DNA of 52,609 bases, from assembly GCA_020048645.1 (NCBI GenBank), contig JAIFMG010000039.1, positions 1-52,609 of the forward strand, given 5' to 3'. A model generated the notes under the pieces. It was not told the origin of the DNA. It saw only the letters and a program-made list of their open reading frames with translations, and did no database searches. This document shows positions 39,423 through 48,586 of this stretch, piece after piece. A program made the translations under genes and the position numbers. Numbering within the stretch: the stretch's first letter is position 1; the number at the start of each line of letters is the position of its first letter. Origin of the DNA: Bacteroidota bacterium. Lineage in GTDB: Bacteria; Bacteroidota; Bacteroidia; Bacteroidales; UBA6013.

Positions 39423-39938
39423 ATGATGACAGAAGAACATATAAAAGAGGCTTTATCATTAAGGTACATAGAATTGGTTGCCGCCTTTAATGGTTACAAA
39501 ACAAGTTCTTCGTATCCTGATTATGGAACTGATTTAGAAATCAAAGAGATTGATTTTCGTATTGAAAACCAGCATAAAAGATATTTTGAAACTGGTAGAG
39601 AATTAAAATTCCAATTAAAAGCAACAACGGAAAATTCAATAGTTATTGAAGAAGAAGCTCTTAAATACGATTTAAATTCATCAACGTATAATGATTTGCT
39701 TTCAAGGAAAAAAACTAAATGTCCCCTGATTTTAATTTTATTTGTTCTTCCATCAGACAAATCAAATTGGTTGAACATTTCTGATAACGAATTAATTACA
39801 AGGAAATGTGCATACTGGTATTTTCCAGATAAAGCAGAATTATTAACACCCAATTTTGCCACAAAGAGGATTTCAATCAGTAAAAACAATTTTATTTCTA
39901 ATGATACACTAAATCAATTATTTGATAATTACTCATAA
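39423..39938 (+). CDS. DUF4365-domain protein (PD-(D/E)XK-like nuclease fold)
   Basis: This 171-residue protein fits DUF4365. The core has Glu17 in YIELVAAFNG, Asp37 in YPDYGTDLEI and Gln64-x-Lys66 in GRELKFQLKAT, the D...(E/Q)xK arrangement of a restriction-like nuclease. The later NLNSSTYNDLLSRKK-like region and the strand PLILILFVLP are also family-like. AT-rich codons differ strongly from the surroundings, indicating transfer. It is coupled to the next gene by TAATG (1-nt overlap). Such nuclease-like proteins with a coupled partner in islands are often anti-phage or addiction systems, but nothing in the sequence proves that here. Confidence 0.85.
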   Translation: MMTEEHIKEALSLRYIELVAAFNGYKTSSSYPDYGTDLEIKEIDFRIENQHKRYFETGRELKFQLKATTENSIVIEEEALKYDLNSSTYNDLLSRKKTKCPLILILFVLPSDKSNWLNISDNELITRKCAYWYFPDKAELLTPNFATKRISISKNNFISNDTLNQLFDNYS

Positions 39939-41032
39939 TGAAGAACCAATTAATATATAAAAATATTACAGACCTGTTAATAAGCAGAGATTGGAAAAAA
40001 CAGGAAGTTAGAACAAAATATGATTTATTTGTTCCGCCTTCAAAACTGGGTTTTTCTGATACCTATAAATTATACATTTACAATAAATATGAAAATTCAG
40101 ATTACGAGAGAGAAATTTTAAAAAATTTAAATATTGTTTCACAAATTTACAGTGAAGATATAGACGAATTGGCTTCAATAATCATCGAGGACAGGCAAAT
40201 ATTATCATTCCATATAGAGAACGAAAATATAAAAAATGGACACCCAAGTATTCCATTTTTTAATACACTGATTAACAAATCAAAAGAATTATTACAGGAA
40301 GTAGCAAATTTTTCGGTCATTAAACAACCTCATTTTTTTGACAGCAAAGATGAAGCAGAAAGATACTTGAATTATTGTAACTTTTTCAAAAATGATGCTG
40401 GTAGTTTAATTACAAAAATACAATTGCCAAATAATGAAGAGATAAAAGAAAAAACTCTTTTTGAAAATTCAATAATTGGCAGAGAAATAAATCTGAACTT
40501 GATCAACATTACCGAATTCATCAATACAGAAATAATTGGTTCTGATAATTTTGAGCCCACCAATGTTTTTTTAATTCAAAATAGGGATTTAGTAAGTGTA
40601 AATGTATCAAATAAATTAAAAGATTTATACACTGGCATTGAATATGCGGATATTGAAATTTCTCTAAAAGGAACTCAAATAAACCAAATAACTACTGCCA
40701 AAGAATTGAATAGAGAAAAGGTGAATAATTTGAGCACATTTTCAAAAACAATTCGTGAAAAAATGAAAGAAATATCCGAAAACGATGTTTATGGCAAGAT
40801 TGTTCAATTGAAATCAAAAGACGTTGATAGCGACCAAAATATGATACTAATTGAAGGCGAAATCAAAAAGGTTAGATCAAAAATTTCAGTAAAATTAAAT
40901 TCAGATCAAATTAAATTGGCTGCCGACGCTTTTAAAAATAATAGAACAGTTTTGATCAATGCTATTTTAGAAAAAGACAAAACGCAATACAAAGTAGTAG
41001 AATTAAAAGACTTTAAAACATTAACAAAATAA
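39938..41032 (+). CDS. Partner protein of the DUF4365 gene, family not recognised
   Basis: This 364-residue protein has no signal or TM segment. The N-terminal 120 residues include VPPSKLGFSDTYKLYIYNKY and SEDIDELASIIIEDRQILSF; the middle has an Asn/Glu-rich helical stretch with SLITKIQLPN; the C-terminus (about 270-360) may be an OB or beta-rich domain (YGKIVQLKSKDVDSDQNM). It is AT-rich and starts at the ATG of TAATG, so its translation depends on the DUF4365 gene. It could be an effector, immunity protein or nucleic-acid sensor; I cannot tell. It ends right at the inverted-repeat boundary AACGTCATAGC. Confidence 0.8.
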   Translation: MKNQLIYKNITDLLISRDWKKQEVRTKYDLFVPPSKLGFSDTYKLYIYNKYENSDYEREILKNLNIVSQIYSEDIDELASIIIEDRQILSFHIENENIKNGHPSIPFFNTLINKSKELLQEVANFSVIKQPHFFDSKDEAERYLNYCNFFKNDAGSLITKIQLPNNEEIKEKTLFENSIIGREINLNLINITEFINTEIIGSDNFEPTNVFLIQNRDLVSVNVSNKLKDLYTGIEYADIEISLKGTQINQITTAKELNREKVNNLSTFSKTIREKMKEISENDVYGKIVQLKSKDVDSDQNMILIEGEIKKVRSKISVKLNSDQIKLAADAFKNNRTVLINAILEKDKTQYKVVELKDFKTLTK

Positions 41033-41291
41033 AACGTCATAGCATATGTTAATCTGACCATGTTGACTTTCTGTCTATTACACGAACTTTGTACTTTCAA
41101 ATAGGTTGTTTGGAAAGACTGGCCACCGCCTACAAATTCCACCCCCACACGTTCCAGAGGCTCGAACGTTTTCCGCGAGCTTGAGGCTATCGGTGGCTTA
41201 GGTTTTTCTAATGAAAACCAATGGCTTGGGCCTTGGCAAAGCAGCACCAGGCCGCAGCCCGCACAAAAGCCAGAAAAAACCGCCAAGGCGC

Positions 41292-41322
41292 TTGTTTTTT
41301 CAAAGTACAGTTTGTACCTTTG
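41292..41322 (+). promoter_or_regulatory. Promoter-like element in leader copy B
   Basis: TTG (41292-41294), 20-nt spacer, TACCTTTG (41315-41322), an exact fit to the -7 consensus. Transcription would start near 41329, 15 nt before the short open frame at 41344. Confidence 0.5.
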
Positions 41323-41343
41323 GCCATAGTCAATCCCCACCCG

Positions 41344-41463
41344 ATGATCAAGCTACCCTCCAAAACCGTCGATGTCCAATCTCAAAGCAGGCAGCCATAC
41401 TTCCAAAACCTGTCGATTCGAAAGTTTGACGGATTGATGCGGCTTCTGGTGGTGTGCATTTAA
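41344..41463 (+). CDS. Short open frame (possible leader peptide)
   Basis: This 39-codon frame encodes a peptide with a basic middle and hydrophobic end (SIRKFDGLMRLLVVCI). In leader copy A the same frame reads PIRMLDGLVRLLEVCVS before a stop at the same point, so the reading frame is kept while the DNA has diverged. That favours translation, but copy A has no in-frame ATG at the equivalent place. It starts 22 nt after a promoter-like box. Confidence 0.3.
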   Translation: MIKLPSKTVDVQSQSRQPYFQNLSIRKFDGLMRLLVVCI

Positions 41464-41697
41464 TTCTTAATGCACAATTGTGCTTTTGGGTAGGAATTGA
41501 AGATGGTGGAAGCAATGACATTACAGGTTATTTTAAGTCGATAGTGCAGAAGATACAAAAGGGAAAAAAAGATATGACAATAAACGGCGAATGGTATTTT
41601 CCTGAATTGAATAGTTCCTATTTTGGAATATTTATCAAAGAAAATACAACCATAAAACTAATAACCGAAATTACGTTACGGACAAAACTTATATCAA

Positions 41698-41973
41698 ATG
41701 GAATTTGAATGGGACGAAAATAAAAATAAACTGAATCAAGATAAACACGGCATTGATTTTAACGATGCCAAAGAAGTTTTTAAAGATGAAAACCGTACAT
41801 TGTCGGAAGACAATAGATTTGATTATAGGGAAAAACGTTGGATAACAGTTGGTATAGTTGCAAATGTTTTCCTTACTGTTGTTTATACAATCAGAGATGC
41901 CATCAGATTAATTTCTGCAAGGCGTTCTAATCGTAAAGAAAGACAAGAATATAACAACAAAAAATCGAAATAA
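41698..41973 (+). CDS. brnT: BrnT-type toxin (ribonuclease)
   Basis: This 91-residue protein starts MEFEWDENKNKLNQDKHGIDF and contains DAKEVFKDENR and RRSNRKERQEY near its end, the DUF497/BrnT pattern of a RelE-fold ribonuclease toxin. BrnT cleaves RNA and is neutralised by BrnA. It is AT-rich like the DUF4365 cassette. Its antitoxin starts 1 nt after its stop. A longer frame upstream from 41454 overlaps the start but lacks family features. Confidence 0.85.
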   Translation: MEFEWDENKNKLNQDKHGIDFNDAKEVFKDENRTLSEDNRFDYREKRWITVGIVANVFLTVVYTIRDAIRLISARRSNRKERQEYNNKKSK

Positions 41974-41974
41974 A

Positions 41975-42358
41975 ATGGAAACAACAAAAATATATTGGAA
42001 AACCATTCTTGAAATGATAAAAAATGGTGAAACAGTAGAAAATATTGAAGTAGAATTCAATAGCGAAACATTGTTATGGAACGATGCCATGATATTAGGT
42101 AAACATGGAATACAAGTTCCGCAAGAATTTATTGATTACGATGACGATAATATTGATTACAGCGACAACCCGGAAATTACCGATGAAGATATTGCAGCAG
42201 GAAAAATAAAGTGGATACGGAAAGCTGAAATTCCTTTGCATAAAGAAGTTGAAGATTGGATTAAAAAGGAAAAAATTGATTTTAATGCCTTGGTTGCAGA
42301 ATTGGTTGAAAATTTTTACAAAACGCTTAAAAATATTCCCAAAAACGCTGCACTATAA
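41975..42358 (+). CDS. brnA: BrnA-like antitoxin
   Basis: This 127-residue protein has the acidic EITDEDIAAGKIKWIRKAEI and a C-terminal helical region KEVEDWIKKEKIDFNALVAELV that fits the ribbon-helix-helix DNA-binding and dimerising part of BrnA. It is longer than many BrnA proteins because of an N-terminal about 60 residues with LWNDAMILGKHGIQVPQ. The gene order toxin then antitoxin is the usual one for brnTA. BrnA also represses the operon. The stop TAA lies inside the boundary repeat CTATAACG. Confidence 0.75.
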   Translation: METTKIYWKTILEMIKNGETVENIEVEFNSETLLWNDAMILGKHGIQVPQEFIDYDDDNIDYSDNPEITDEDIAAGKIKWIRKAEIPLHKEVEDWIKKEKIDFNALVAELVENFYKTLKNIPKNAAL

Positions 42359-43068: not shown

Positions 43069-43151
43069 GCGCGGGGCTGGCTTCCCGCTTGGGGCTCCGG
43101 CTCCGGGGCGGCTTTTCCCTTTTTCTTAACTTTGGGGAAAAAGCCGCCCCG

Positions 43152-46100
43152 ATGAAGCATCTGCCCCTGACCTTCTTCTTCCTTCTCATTTCTAGCCTCG
43201 CCTGGGGCCAGCACGTCAGCCTTTCCGGCATCCAGGCCGACTCCTACCCCGAGATGTCCGCCCAGTTCCTGGCGCTGGACGCGCGGGGCAGGCAGATTTT
43301 CGACCTCAAGCCCAGCGACTTGCAGCTCGTCGAGAACGGGCGGCCCGTGGCCGTCGCGGCCGTGCAGTGCCCGCCCGCGGCCGAGCCGCTGCCCTTGTCG
43401 GTGGTCCTGGCCATCGACGTGTCGGGCTCGATGGACGGCGCGCGGGTGCTGATGGCCCAGCAGGCGGCCTTGGCCTTCGCCCGAGCCGCGCCCATGGACC
43501 TGACCGAGATCGCCCTGACCAGCTTCGACGACCGCAGCTACCTCAACACCGACTTCACGAACAGCTACGAACGCGTGGCCCAGGCCATCGTGGACCTGCG
43601 CGCCCGCGGCGGCACCAACTACCAGCTCGGCTTCCTGCAAGGCATATCGGGCGCGCTGGAGACCGCCCGCCGAGGCCGCCACAAGCGCGTGGTCGTCTTC
43701 CTGACCGATGGGCTGAGCGAGGCCGCGCCCGAAGGCATCATCCGCCTGGCCCAGGAGCTGCGCGCCACGGTCTATTGCCTGGCCATCCAGATGGACGTGC
43801 CGCCCGTGCTGGCGCAGGTGGCCCACGCCACCGGAGGCAAGGTCTATGGCCGGGTCAACGACGCCGAGCAGGGAAAGCGCGTTTACCTCGAAATCTTGCA
43901 GGAGGCCCAGGGCATCCGCCCCTGCCGCGTGACGTGGCGGGCCACGCCCAACTGCCGCCCCGAGCAGCGCTACACCCTGACGGCCCTAGGGCGCTCGGCC
44001 AGCCTCGACTTCCGACTGCCCGACGAGAAGGTGCCCGCGCTGCAGGCCACGCCCAGCCAGCTCAGCTTCCTGCCCGGCGAGCCCGGCACGCGGCAGGTCC
44101 TGCCCGTCCGCCTGACGGCCCGCGCCATGCCCTTCGACCTCCGGGCCATCCGCCCCTCCGACCCGCAGATGCGCGTGCTCCAGCCCGAGCGACTGCCCGC
44201 GCGGCTGGCCCCAGGGCAAAGCCTCGACCTGCAAGTGGCCTTCGACCCGAGCCAAGCGGGCGCCTTCTCGCGCTTCCTGCTCGAAAACAACCTTTGCCCC
44301 GAAAGCTACTTCTACGCCAACACGGCGGGCCAGGCGCCCACCGGCACCGCGCGCTCGCCCCTGCGCGTCAAGCATCCCAACGGCGGCGAGCTTTTCGCCG
44401 TGGGCACCCAGACCACCATCGAGTGGGAAGGAATCGGGCCCGGCGACCCGGTGGCCCTCCACTACTCGGACGACCTGGGACGGAGCTGGCATCCGGTGGC
44501 CACGGACACCGGGCTGGTCTATGAATGGAAACTGCCGCCACTGCCCGGCGAGCGCTACCTGGTGCGGGTGGACCAGGTGGCCCAGCTCTCGGCCCGGCCC
44601 TACGCCTACGAGCGAGAGCGCTTCTTCAGCGAAATCCTCTTCGGCGCCGAGGGCAAGCGGATGCTGACCCTCTCGCCCCACGGCCGCGCCGACCTCTGGA
44701 ACCTGCGCGACGGCAAGAGCCTGGCGGGAAGCGACGCCGCCCTGCGCGTGGCCTTCGCCCCCTCGGGCCGATGGGCCGCGGTGCTGGGCCGCGACAAGGC
44801 CCTGGCGGTGCTCGACGCGCTTTCGGGCGACACGCTCTGGCACCAGGCGGGCACCGGCCTGTTCGCCTTTTCGCCCACCGAAGACCGGGTGGCCTGCACC
44901 CTCTCGGACAAGGAGCTGGCCCTCCGGCAGCTCGCCTCGGGCCAGCAACTGGTCATCAAGACGACCAAGGCGCTGGCGCGGGTGGAGTTTTCGCCCGATG
45001 GGACGCGGCTGCTGACGGTGGACGCCGACGGGGTGGCGCAGGTCTGGGACAGCCGCGACGGCCGCGAGCTGATGCGCGACAAGGGCCGCGAACCGCTGGA
45101 GCAGGCCTTGTTCCTGGCCGGCGGGCAGCGGCTGGTAGTGGCCCGCGGGCAGACGCTCTTCTTCTGGGACGCCAGCTCGGGCGCGCTGGCCAGCGAGTGG
45201 ACCGACGCCAAGAAGATCGAGCAGCTCTTCGCCAGCCAGGACGGCCGGACGCTCTGGGCCAAGACCTGGGAGGCGCTCTGGGCCTTCGACCCCGGCACCG
45301 GGGAGGCCACGCTGAGCGCCGACTGCCCCAGCTTCGCCGTCTCGGCCGATGGGCGCGTGGCCTTCGCGCAGGTGCGCAAGGACAGCGTGGCCGGGCTTTG
45401 GGACGCCCGCGCGGGGCGCAGCCTGGCCACGCTTTCGCACGCGGGCGGGCAGGTGCAGGCGCTGGCCTTCTCGCCCGACGGCGGGGCGCTGCTCACGGGT
45501 AGCTCCGACTACGTCCACGCCCCCGTGGGCGCGCGGCAGAGCATCCGCCCCTCGGACAAGATTGCCCGAATCTGGGACACCCGGACGGGCCAGATGCTGG
45601 CGCAGATGCAGGGCCACACGGGAGCCGTGACCGGAGGCGCCTTCTCGCCCGACGGCCTGCTGGTGGCCACCTTCAGCCTCGACTCGACGGCCCGCGTCTG
45701 GGACCGCACCTCCGGGCAGCCCGTGGTCGTCTTGCGCGGGCACCAGGAGCCGGTGCTCGGGGCCTACTTCGCCCCCGATGGGCGGACGCTGGTAACGCTG
45801 GGCTCCGACAACACGGCCAAGGCCTGGGACGTGCTCACCGGACGCCTGCTCAAGGACCTTGCCGGGCACAGCTCCGACCTGCTCGACGCCTTTTTCAGCC
45901 CCGACAACGCCTTCCTGGTAACACGCAGCTTCGGCATGAGCATCGTCTGGCCCGAGCTCCGGCAGGAGGTCTTGCAGACCGACCAGAGCGACGGGCCGTT
46001 CCGCCTGGCCGACTCGCCCCTGGCGGTCTCGCCCATCGACATGGGGACGATTTTCGTGGGGCAAAGCCTCGACAGGCGGATAGCGGGCTGGCTGCGCAAC

Positions 46101-47261
46101 CCGAACCTTCTGCCGGCCGGCGTGGAGGCCATCGAGATCCGCGGCGGCCATGCCGAGGACTTCTCGCTGGCCACGCCTTTCGAGCCGATGGTGGTCGCGG
46201 CGCGGTCGGCGGCGGACGTCGAGTTCCGCTTCCGGCCCAAGGTGGCGGGCCAGCGCTCGGCGCAGGTCTGGCTGATGGGCCCGATGGACACGCTGCGGGT
46301 GGAAATCCGGGGCAAGGCCGTCAGCCCCAGCCTGCGCTTCGAGGCCGTGGTGGACTTCGGCAAGCGGGTGCCGCTGTTCGAGACCGACACGCTGGCGCTG
46401 CGGGTCAGCAACAGCTCCAGCCAGCCCGTGCGGCTGGACAGCGTGGTGAACGCGGGGCCGAACGCCAGCCAGTTCAGGCTGCTCCTGCCGGGCGGGCCCG
46501 TGAGCATCGGCAGCCAGCAGAGCCTGGAGATTCCCGTGGTGTTCGCGCCGACGGTGCGGGGCTTCAGCTCGGGCAGCTTCGAGCTGTGGGCCAACGGCAT
46601 CGACCTGCCGCAGACGGTGCAGACCTTCGGCGAGGGCGTCGGGCAGCGCGCGGTGGAGGTGGCCGGACGGCTGACGGACCAGCGCGACGGGCGCCCGCTG
46701 GAGGCCGTGGTGAGCGTCTTCGACCTGGAGACCGGGCGCGAGCTGGCCCGCGAGGAAGCGGAGGGCCAATACAGCCTGAGCGTGAACGCCGACCGGCAGT
46801 ACGCTGTCGTGGTGGCCAAGGAGGGCTACCTGGCCGTGAGCGAGAGCCTGGACCTGCGGCAGCCGACCCAGGCCGCGACGCAGGCGCTCGACGTGGAGGT
46901 GCCACCCTTCGCGGTGGGCTCGCGCATCGTGCTGAACAACGTCTTCTTCGAGACGGGCAAGGCCGCGCTGGACCCCGCCTCGGAGCTGGAGCTGCGGCGC
47001 GTCGCGGCGCTGCTGGCCGAGCATCCGGCCCTGCGCGTCGAGATCGGCGGGCACACCGACAGCGTGGGCACTGACGCCATCAACCTGCCGCTCTCGCAAA
47101 ACCGGGCCAACGCCGTGCGCGACTACCTGCTGCGGCAGGGCGTGCCGGCCAGCCGCCTGGTGGCCAAGGGCTACGCGGCGGCCAAGCCCATCGCCCCGAA
47201 CCACACGCCCGAGGGCCGGCAGCGCAACCGCCGGGTGGAGTTCCTGATCCTGGAGCTTTAG
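43152..47261 (+). CDS. 1369-residue vWA - WD40 - OmpA fusion protein
   Basis: Signal peptide (about 1-19). A vWA domain follows with MIDAS motif AIDVSGSMDG (Asp89, Ser91, Ser93) to about 270. Then a Kre9/KNH-like Ig module with HPNGGELFAVG (about 405-475). A WD40 propeller (about 485-935) has repeats such as LAFSPDGGALLTGSSD and ending WD. Then two Hydin/ASPM-like Ig modules (about 955-1160), a carboxypeptidase-regulatory-like beta sandwich (about 1167-1235) and a C-terminal OmpA domain (about 1262-1369) with GGHTDSVG and NLPLSQNRANAVRDYL. The OmpA part binds peptidoglycan and the rest faces the periplasm or surface. ATG 43152 is set by the signal peptide. It converges with the MscS gene (4-nt overlap). 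Confidence 0.9.
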   Translation: MKHLPLTFFFLLISSLAWGQHVSLSGIQADSYPEMSAQFLALDARGRQIFDLKPSDLQLVENGRPVAVAAVQCPPAAEPLPLSVVLAIDVSGSMDGARVLMAQQAALAFARAAPMDLTEIALTSFDDRSYLNTDFTNSYERVAQAIVDLRARGGTNYQLGFLQGISGALETARRGRHKRVVVFLTDGLSEAAPEGIIRLAQELRATVYCLAIQMDVPPVLAQVAHATGGKVYGRVNDAEQGKRVYLEILQEAQGIRPCRVTWRATPNCRPEQRYTLTALGRSASLDFRLPDEKVPALQATPSQLSFLPGEPGTRQVLPVRLTARAMPFDLRAIRPSDPQMRVLQPERLPARLAPGQSLDLQVAFDPSQAGAFSRFLLENNLCPESYFYANTAGQAPTGTARSPLRVKHPNGGELFAVGTQTTIEWEGIGPGDPVALHYSDDLGRSWHPVATDTGLVYEWKLPPLPGERYLVRVDQVAQLSARPYAYERERFFSEILFGAEGKRMLTLSPHGRADLWNLRDGKSLAGSDAALRVAFAPSGRWAAVLGRDKALAVLDALSGDTLWHQAGTGLFAFSPTEDRVACTLSDKELALRQLASGQQLVIKTTKALARVEFSPDGTRLLTVDADGVAQVWDSRDGRELMRDKGREPLEQALFLAGGQRLVVARGQTLFFWDASSGALASEWTDAKKIEQLFASQDGRTLWAKTWEALWAFDPGTGEATLSADCPSFAVSADGRVAFAQVRKDSVAGLWDARAGRSLATLSHAGGQVQALAFSPDGGALLTGSSDYVHAPVGARQSIRPSDKIARIWDTRTGQMLAQMQGHTGAVTGGAFSPDGLLVATFSLDSTARVWDRTSGQPVVVLRGHQEPVLGAYFAPDGRTLVTLGSDNTAKAWDVLTGRLLKDLAGHSSDLLDAFFSPDNAFLVTRSFGMSIVWPELRQEVLQTDQSDGPFRLADSPLAVSPIDMGTIFVGQSLDRRIAGWLRNPNLLPAGVEAIEIRGGHAEDFSLATPFEPMVVAARSAADVEFRFRPKVAGQRSAQVWLMGPMDTLRVEIRGKAVSPSLRFEAVVDFGKRVPLFETDTLALRVSNSSSQPVRLDSVVNAGPNASQFRLLLPGGPVSIGSQQSLEIPVVFAPTVRGFSSGSFELWANGIDLPQTVQTFGEGVGQRAVEVAGRLTDQRDGRPLEAVVSVFDLETGRELAREEAEGQYSLSVNADRQYAVVVAKEGYLAVSESLDLRQPTQAATQALDVEVPPFAVGSRIVLNNVFFETGKAALDPASELELRRVAALLAEHPALRVEIGGHTDSVGTDAINLPLSQNRANAVRDYLLRQGVPASRLVAKGYAAAKPIAPNHTPEGRQRNRRVEFLILEL

Positions 47262-48586
47262 CGGGGGTCGCGTAGGACGCGGAAGTCGGATCCGGTGGGG
47301 TTCTGGAAGACGTTGAGGTCGAACTCGTTGACGGAGGCCAGGATGTGGTCGAAGATGTCGGCCTGGATGTCTTCGTACTCGGGCCATGAAGTGGTGCGGG
47401 TGAAGACGTAGATTTCGATGGGGATGCCGGTCTCGCCGGGTGCGAGCTGGCGCACCAGGAAGGTGAAGCCGTCGTGGAGCTGGTTGTTCTGGCGCAGAAA
47501 CAGCTCGAGGTACTTGCGGAAGGTGCCCAGGTTGGTCAGCCGGGCGCGGTTGACCAGGGATCCCCCGACCTCGATGCCGGCGGCCTGGTTGTGCTGGGCC
47601 AGCTCATTCTCCTTGTGGAGGATGTAGGGGCGCAGGATGTGTATCTGCTTGAAGCGATCGAGCAGGGCTTGGTCGCAGAAGCGGACGCTGTTGATGTCGA
47701 TGTGGACGGCCCGCTTGATGCGGCGGCCTCCGGCGTGCTGCATTCCCTTCCAGTTGGTGAAGGACTCGGAGACCAGGGCATAGGTGGGGATGGTGCTGAT
47801 GGTCTTGTCGAAGTTCTGGACCTTGACGGTGCTCAGGGAGATGTCGAGCACGTCGCCGTCGGCCCCGCGGCTGGGCATGGAGATCCAGTCGCCGCGCTTG
47901 ACCATCCGGTAGGCCGAGAGCTGGATGCTGGCCACGAAGCCCAGGATGGTGTCCTTGAAGACGAGCATGAGCACGGCGGCCAGGGCGCCCAGGCCGGTGA
48001 GCAGCTTCCCGGGCGACTGGCCGAGCAGCTCCGAGAAGATGAGGATGCCGGCCACGGAGATGACCACGATGTTGACCACTTGGCGGAGGGTGTGCAGGTA
48101 GCCGGAGATGCTCAAGGCCGTCTCTTCGTGGTCCATGGACTCGCGGCTGCCGGACTTGTCGTCCTTGTGCCGGTTCTCGACGACCTTCTGGAAGATTTCG
48201 GCCATGGCGTTGACGAAGGACTGGGCCACCACGAGCAGGACGATGACCATATAGATGTAGGCCATGGACTGGATGACCTGCACGAGCCTTTGGTCGTCGA
48301 AGGCCCAGGCGATGCCGTAGTAGAAGATCAGCCCGGGCACCAGGTGCGAGAGGCGGCTGAAGACCCTGTTCTCGAGGAAGACGTCGTCGTAGGTGTTCTT
48401 GCTCCGTTCGATGAGGCGGGTGACGACCCTGACGATGATCTTCTTGGTCAAGAAGTTGGCCAGCAGGGCCACGCAGGCCAGGCAGACCACCAGAATGGCC
48501 ACGTTGAGCGACTCTGCGGTATGGGGCCGGACACCCCAGCCTTGCAGAACCTTCTCGAAACTCGCGCTGATCTTCTCTGCTTGCAT
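47258..48586 (-). CDS. MscS-family mechanosensitive channel (YbdG-like)
   Basis: This 442-residue protein has five or so TM segments from about 30 to 235. The pore-lining TM3 is LTGLGALAAVLMLVFKDTILGFVAS. The cytoplasmic beta domain follows with KRGDWISMPSRGADGDVLDI and TVKVQNFDKTISTIPTYAL. Length and insertion resemble YbdG-type MscM. It protects against osmotic downshock. ATG 48586 fits the family; the frame extends through a hairpin to 48643. The stop overlaps the convergent OmpA-fusion gene by 4 nt. Confidence 0.92.
   Translation of the reverse strand: MQAEKISASFEKVLQGWGVRPHTAESLNVAILVVCLACVALLANFLTKKIIVRVVTRLIERSKNTYDDVFLENRVFSRLSHLVPGLIFYYGIAWAFDDQRLVQVIQSMAYIYMVIVLLVVAQSFVNAMAEIFQKVVENRHKDDKSGSRESMDHEETALSISGYLHTLRQVVNIVVISVAGILIFSELLGQSPGKLLTGLGALAAVLMLVFKDTILGFVASIQLSAYRMVKRGDWISMPSRGADGDVLDISLSTVKVQNFDKTISTIPTYALVSESFTNWKGMQHAGGRRIKRAVHIDINSVRFCDQALLDRFKQIHILRPYILHKENELAQHNQAAGIEVGGSLVNRARLTNLGTFRKYLELFLRQNNQLHDGFTFLVRQLAPGETGIPIEIYVFTRTTSWPEYEDIQADIFDHILASVNEFDLNVFQNPTGSDFRVLRDPR

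Follow-up and report, generated by a model that had tools for sequence, protein, structure and literature searches.

PorE (PG1058) is a periplasmic lipoprotein associated with the type IX secretion system (T9SS), in which a lipoprotein signal and TPR repeats, as described in PMC5053529, accompany a propeller, a CarboxypepD_reg-like module (CRD) and an OmpA-like domain in that order. In the account of its crystal structure (PMC7192894), the side chains of Asp576, Asn584 and Arg591 hydrogen-bond a peptidoglycan fragment, and a report of a PorE-PorP-PG1035 complex proposes PorE as a bridge from the PorP barrel to the wall (PMC9143113). The stretch of DNA analyzed here (the window) comprises 52,609 nucleotides of contig JAIFMG010000039.1 from a Bacteroidota bacterium of the order Bacteroidales (assembly GCA_020048645.1). 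At 43152..47261 on the + strand it encodes a protein of 1369 amino acids (the window protein), in which the order propeller, CRD and OmpA recurs behind a quite different N-terminal part. The gene begins with an ATG at 43152 and its stop codon ends at 47261; the coordinates, strand and length given in a first-pass annotation of this DNA were exact.

On balance, the window protein is probably a periplasmic scaffold fixed to peptidoglycan. Beyond this individual protein, there is about an even chance that it represents an undescribed envelope family of Bacteroidota, built on one core of the form vWA-ASH-sandwich-[propeller or, once, a GldK-like module]-ASH-ASH, whose C-terminal anchor is exchanged and thereby decides on which side of the outer membrane it ends up: OmpA for the wall and periplasm, a T9SS sorting tail for the surface, or an outer-membrane barrel. 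Every one of these modules resembles a known kind of domain, and the exchange of anchors on a single core is the most interesting point.

A conserved core with differing tails

The comparison covered 31 proteins: the window protein, nine from its own order, one from Marinilabilia rubra (L009, grouped with the own order in trees and alignments on the assumption that it belongs there) and 20 other-class proteins. The latter were taken from 20 of the 35 genomes outside the class that carry the N-terminal module, with only the best copy of each genome used, and are not a random draw. Three own-order pieces that are short or cut at contig ends (L048, L056 and L057) were left out. Family profiles place a vWA domain, an ASH module, a small beta-sandwich and an ASH pair in the same order in all 31, of which 11 are seed rows that match by construction and 20 are not; the match to the ASH pair is weak in L126 (E 3e-8) and L128 (E 6e-7). 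Since homologues keep the same domain order, the architecture of the window protein is not a product of chance. The middle of the core varies, with at least one WD-like repeat at E <1 in 25 proteins, six or more in 14, and none by the home-made repeat profile in six. One of these six, L110 (genome G415, 2100-2900), has an FGE-sulfatase module where the propeller would be, with a score for GldK as well.

A complete CRD-OmpA tail is found in 10 of the 11 window-side proteins (those of the window, the own order and M. rubra), and the remaining one, L058, stops where the OmpA domain begins. The other-class proteins share the vWA-ASH-sandwich-[middle]-ASH-ASH core and differ in what follows it, which can be a sorting domain, an OmpA domain without a CRD or a probable barrel. 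The T9SS sorting tail scores over its curated cut-off in half of them (TIGR04183 in L110, L113, L114, L116, L117, L120, L121, L122 and L124; Pfam in L127; 10 of 20 in all) and matches below cut-off in two more (L123 and L128). OmpA without a CRD occurs in three (L111, L112 and L118) and a probable barrel ending in W in another three (L119, L125 and L126; Pfam E 1e-4 at best, below cut-off, with no match for L119), leaving two with no recognized tail (L115 and L129, the tail of the latter scanned with Pfam only). In the core tree, the other-class rows with OmpA tails (three) and those with barrel tails (three) each form a clade (100/100 in both cases), and each clade comes from one family, so that tails change by lineage. 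As a separate observation, the last 250 residues of L123 (1863-2612, - strand) match Cohesin (E 7.8e-6, 26.6 bits, cut-off 24.1) immediately ahead of the weak T9SS tail.

The relatives with a T9SS tail are presumably located on the cell surface, and adhesins often contain vWA and Ig modules; both points would be in keeping with the window protein being a wall-held adhesin at the cell surface. However, the copy in the window ends in OmpA, its gene is absent among the 54 places of its own genome that match the T9SS sorting tail (TIGR04183, E <=0.001), no lipobox cysteine was seen by eye after its signal peptide, and peptidoglycan lies beneath the outer membrane, which makes it periplasmic in diderms. 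With no export tail found in this copy, the adhesin was rejected as a candidate, and we regard it as quite improbable. The first-pass annotation had proposed a wall-anchored adhesion or scaffold protein: adhesion and surface exposure thus find no support for this copy, while the wall-anchored scaffold is favored, as a reading, by the peptidoglycan-binding residues of its tail.

The C-terminal tail and its relationship to PorE

The tail comprises the CRD (46629..46910, + strand; residues 1160-1253) and an OmpA-like peptidoglycan-binding domain (46917..47255, + strand; residues 1256-1368). The latter matches PF00691 at residues 1265-1360 with 85.6 bits against a cut-off of 27.2, and the nearest solved chains belong to the OmpA family both for the C-terminal 210 residues and for the OmpA part searched alone. 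The CRD matches PF13620 below cut-off when scanned alone (E 5.6e-6, 27.1 bits, cut-off 32.3), and the PorE model aligns across it into the OmpA domain. Within the OmpA domain, D1303, N1311 and R1318 are the counterparts of the three PorE residues reported to contact peptidoglycan, with the same spacing of 8 and 7. Ten of the 11 aligned rows extend as far as this triad and all ten retain it; the sequence of L058 is truncated before it. The N-terminus bears a Sec-type signal peptide (43152..43208, + strand; residues 1-19, without a lipobox cysteine), which by eye ends near Q20, a residue invariant across the 11-row alignment. It is this combination of a Sec signal with an OmpA end carrying the three PorE residues that points to the periplasm.

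Despite these likenesses, the window protein is not PorE itself. The PorE model NF052230 scores it at 98.1 bits over residues 1169-1346 against a curated cut-off of 600, whereas a separate PorE encoded on contig C169 of the same genome reaches 668.9 bits; none of 14 control genomes gave a score over the cut-off. TPR was found neither among the best 25 of 48 matching Pfam families nor at residues 235-483 scanned alone, and vWA and ASH modules occupy the N-terminus where PorE has TPR. Identity with PorE was therefore rejected on score, TPR and lipobox, and because the genome has a PorE of its own. The genome contains 25 further places that match the PorE model below cut-off, including the tail of the window gene; separately, proteins on contigs C74, C86, C105, C131, C158, C168 and C174 match long stretches of that model, likewise below cut-off.

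A PorE-like paralogue might still do PorE's work, as an additional T9SS or gliding component confined to this lineage. The CRD-OmpA part common to PorE-like proteins would fit such a role, as would the occurrence in the same genome of PorE and T9SS sorting tails, the two T9SS features searched for, and the GldK-scoring module of L110. Set against this are the presence of PorE proper elsewhere in the genome with its far higher score, the failure to find the core in 382 of 393 order genomes and 344 of 345 class genomes, and the lack of a PorP_SprF match among the eight flanking open reading frames (ORFs), half of which are without any Pfam match at E 0.001. An extra T9SS or gliding component is accordingly unlikely.

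The vWA domain

The vWA domain (43392..43886, + strand; residues 81-245) is recognized by Pfam VWA and VWA_2 (VWA at residues 84-239), by conservation and by Foldseek. The metal-ion-dependent adhesion site (MIDAS) of such domains consists of DxSxS plus a Thr and an Asp, here D89-S91-S93, T155 and D186. The site is intact, as the first-pass annotation had held: D89, S91, S93 and D186 are invariant across the 31 aligned family members, 30 of which also have T155. Residues 20-480 were modeled with AlphaFold2 from two sequences; the mean pLDDT (predicted local distance difference test) is 62.5, with the best stretches in the vWA part. A Foldseek search with this medium-confidence model returned vWA folds that include vWF A3, ANTXR and integrin beta (4dmu, for instance, with a template-modeling (TM) score of 0.70 by target).

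The same search returned 4jdu, an aerotolerance-related protein of Bacteroides fragilis (TM 0.62 by target), and three homologues show weak matches to VWA_BatA_Lepto. These hits might point to a periplasmic assembly or quality-control factor, with the vWA as a metal-dependent client-binding domain like that of BatA-type or YfbK-type proteins. Yet vWA folds are broadly alike, many other vWA chains score equal to or better than 4jdu, and neither Bat nor MoxR is matched among the eight flanking ORFs, so that a factor of this kind is very improbable.

ASH modules, beta-sandwich and propeller

Three stretches of the window protein match the choice-of-anchor D/ASH model NF012200 (72.5 bits, cut-off 45), corresponding with the family profiles to ASH/Hydin-like Ig module 1 (44019..44339, + strand; residues 290-396) and to modules 2 and 3 (45999..46631, + strand; residues 950-1160). 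Scanned alone in Pfam, module 1 gives only PapD-like (E 0.03) and modules 2 and 3 only Cep192_D4 (E 7.8e-4, below cut-off).

Between module 1 and the propeller lies the small beta-sandwich (44352..44573, + strand; residues 401-474), delimited by the family profile and perhaps of a Reelin-subrepeat-B-like fold. It had been named KNH in the first-pass annotation; a module conserved across the family does stand there, while the name itself has weak support, as Kre9_KNH (PF10342) is matched by 2 of the 31 homologous stretches (best E 0.02) and not by that of the window protein. Reelin_subrepeat-B is matched by 16 of the 31 (best E 1.1e-4), and the sandwich profile finds its best solved matches in Reelin chains (E 5.4e-7 and 7.4e-5, spanning only about 20-30 positions). 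The AlphaFold2 model is poor over these residues. From sequence comparison, a Reelin-subrepeat-B-like identity appears better supported than KNH.

The WD40-type beta-propeller region (44583..45956, + strand; residues ~478-935) matches PF00400 in four stretches (102.2 bits, cut-off 27) along with related models. By eye, about 11 WD-like repeat ends spaced ~40 residues apart can be discerned, and the home-made repeat profile, seeded in part with repeats from the window protein and from L050, finds eight stretches at E <1, with an overlap between two of them. In the homologue L050, seven regular propeller blades can be made out by eye. Taken together, Pfam and NCBIfam matches, conservation and the family profiles bear out the earlier description of a single secreted chain with a vWA domain, a WD40 propeller, Ig modules and an OmpA end. 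A 1133-aa antisense open frame (43986-47387, - strand) overlaps most of the gene and is probably a GC-rich shadow.

Distribution among genomes

A search with residues 1-1083 (E <=1e-25) found matches in 16 of 393 sampled genomes of the order, 11 of them (the own genome included) over the vWA module and five over the WD40 region only. A profile of residues 1-474 (E 1e-30), representing the vWA-ASH-sandwich module, likewise detected 11 of the 393, own included. It detected the own genome alone in a class sample of 345, which did not contain the ten other positives of the order, and 36 of 395 sampled genomes of the phylum (own plus 35 outside the class). In another class of the phylum, to which one of those 35 belongs, 71 of 245 genomes have the module, in one to at least six copies. 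The M. rubra homologue matches along residues 16-1368.

The first-pass annotation had called the design uncommon, a judgment open to revision should the same architecture prove common and already described in relatives. Rarity holds in the samples of the own order and class; in the other class the core is frequent, and three of the 20 other-class proteins examined end in OmpA. Commonness in relatives is thus partly borne out, and no description of this combination of domains was found among the matches listed in the open-licence literature searched.

Gene neighborhood and an upstream hairpin

The upstream neighbor is a DJ-1/PfpI gene and the downstream one a convergent MscS-type channel. Both an operon partner and a family common to the surroundings of relatives were sought: among the 10 ORFs next to six relatives, no Pfam family is common and one ORF matches none, and in view of this and of the window flanks an operon partner was rejected. 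The stretch 39423-42358 holds a DUF4365 gene followed by ORFs of 364 and 127 aa without Pfam matches at E 0.001.

A near-perfect inverted repeat with 16-base arms and one mismatch (43104..43151, + strand) runs up to the base immediately preceding the start codon. The fold of 43069-43175 reaches -56 kcal/mol (z -3.87, with 0 of 200 shuffles as good), and the hairpin search pattern has a single occurrence in the own genome. Such a hairpin could mask the ribosome-binding site or terminate upstream transcription.

Functional and evolutionary implications

Domain order, MIDAS conservation, the peptidoglycan triad, OmpA-family relatives, the PorE-model score, the CRD-OmpA tails, the lack of a T9SS-tail match and the reported PorE-PorP-PG1035 complex converge on a peptidoglycan-fixed periplasmic scaffold, whose localization, partners and function we infer from them. 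Such a protein would be exported by Sec and lose its signal peptide, after which the C-terminal OmpA domain may grip the wall via diaminopimelate, as its conserved residues suggest. The CRD and Ig modules might then act as a spacer, with the propeller and the metal-dependent vWA at the opposite end docking an outer-membrane or secretion partner, in a manner modeled on the bridging of wall and PorP barrel proposed for PorE. Architecturally, a vWA-ASH-sandwich-[propeller]-ASH-ASH core of a wider Bacteroidota family has in this lineage a PorE-type CRD-OmpA tail.

Several observations weigh against this scaffold. The propeller fold was not obtained in a single-sequence model of the propeller and ASH region (pLDDT only 39.5). 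No neighbor gene recurs among the eight window ORFs and the 10 beside relatives, so that no partner can be named from synteny. With no lipobox seen by eye, the outer-membrane end would, unlike that of PorE, be held by protein contact alone. In the core tree, the other ten window-side rows group together (95/92), and the window protein falls apart from them, beside two other-class proteins (92/88); its letter make-up was flagged as unlike, and hence no conclusion is drawn from this placement. The tail tree, in which L056, a vWA-core protein cut by a contig end, is carried under the label PorElike, mixes window-type tails with some PorE-like ones (99/98) and does not resolve a single CRD-OmpA origin.

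If the exchange of anchors is real, this family might be seen as a natural experiment in protein placement, with the same binding core under different address labels, and would make it possible to ask if that core functions at the surface, within the periplasm or at both sites.

Parallels with known systems can be drawn at either end of the chain. The VWFA-related domain family TIGR03436 (acidobact_VWFA) is the top vWA model among the best 25 of 46 NCBIfam families (61.5 bits, residues 39-237), the score being below its cut-off of 81.25. YiaD (NF053611; 121.8 bits, cut-off 175) and CHU_0125 (NF053607; 96 bits, cut-off 620), which rank with the top NCBIfam models for the tail though below cut-off, share the C-terminal OmpA domain. 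In comparison to PorE, the window protein interposes two ASH modules between the propeller and a CRD that stays below the Pfam cut-off, and it combines a plain signal peptide, a vWA domain, three ASH modules in all and a beta-sandwich in a chain of about twice the length.

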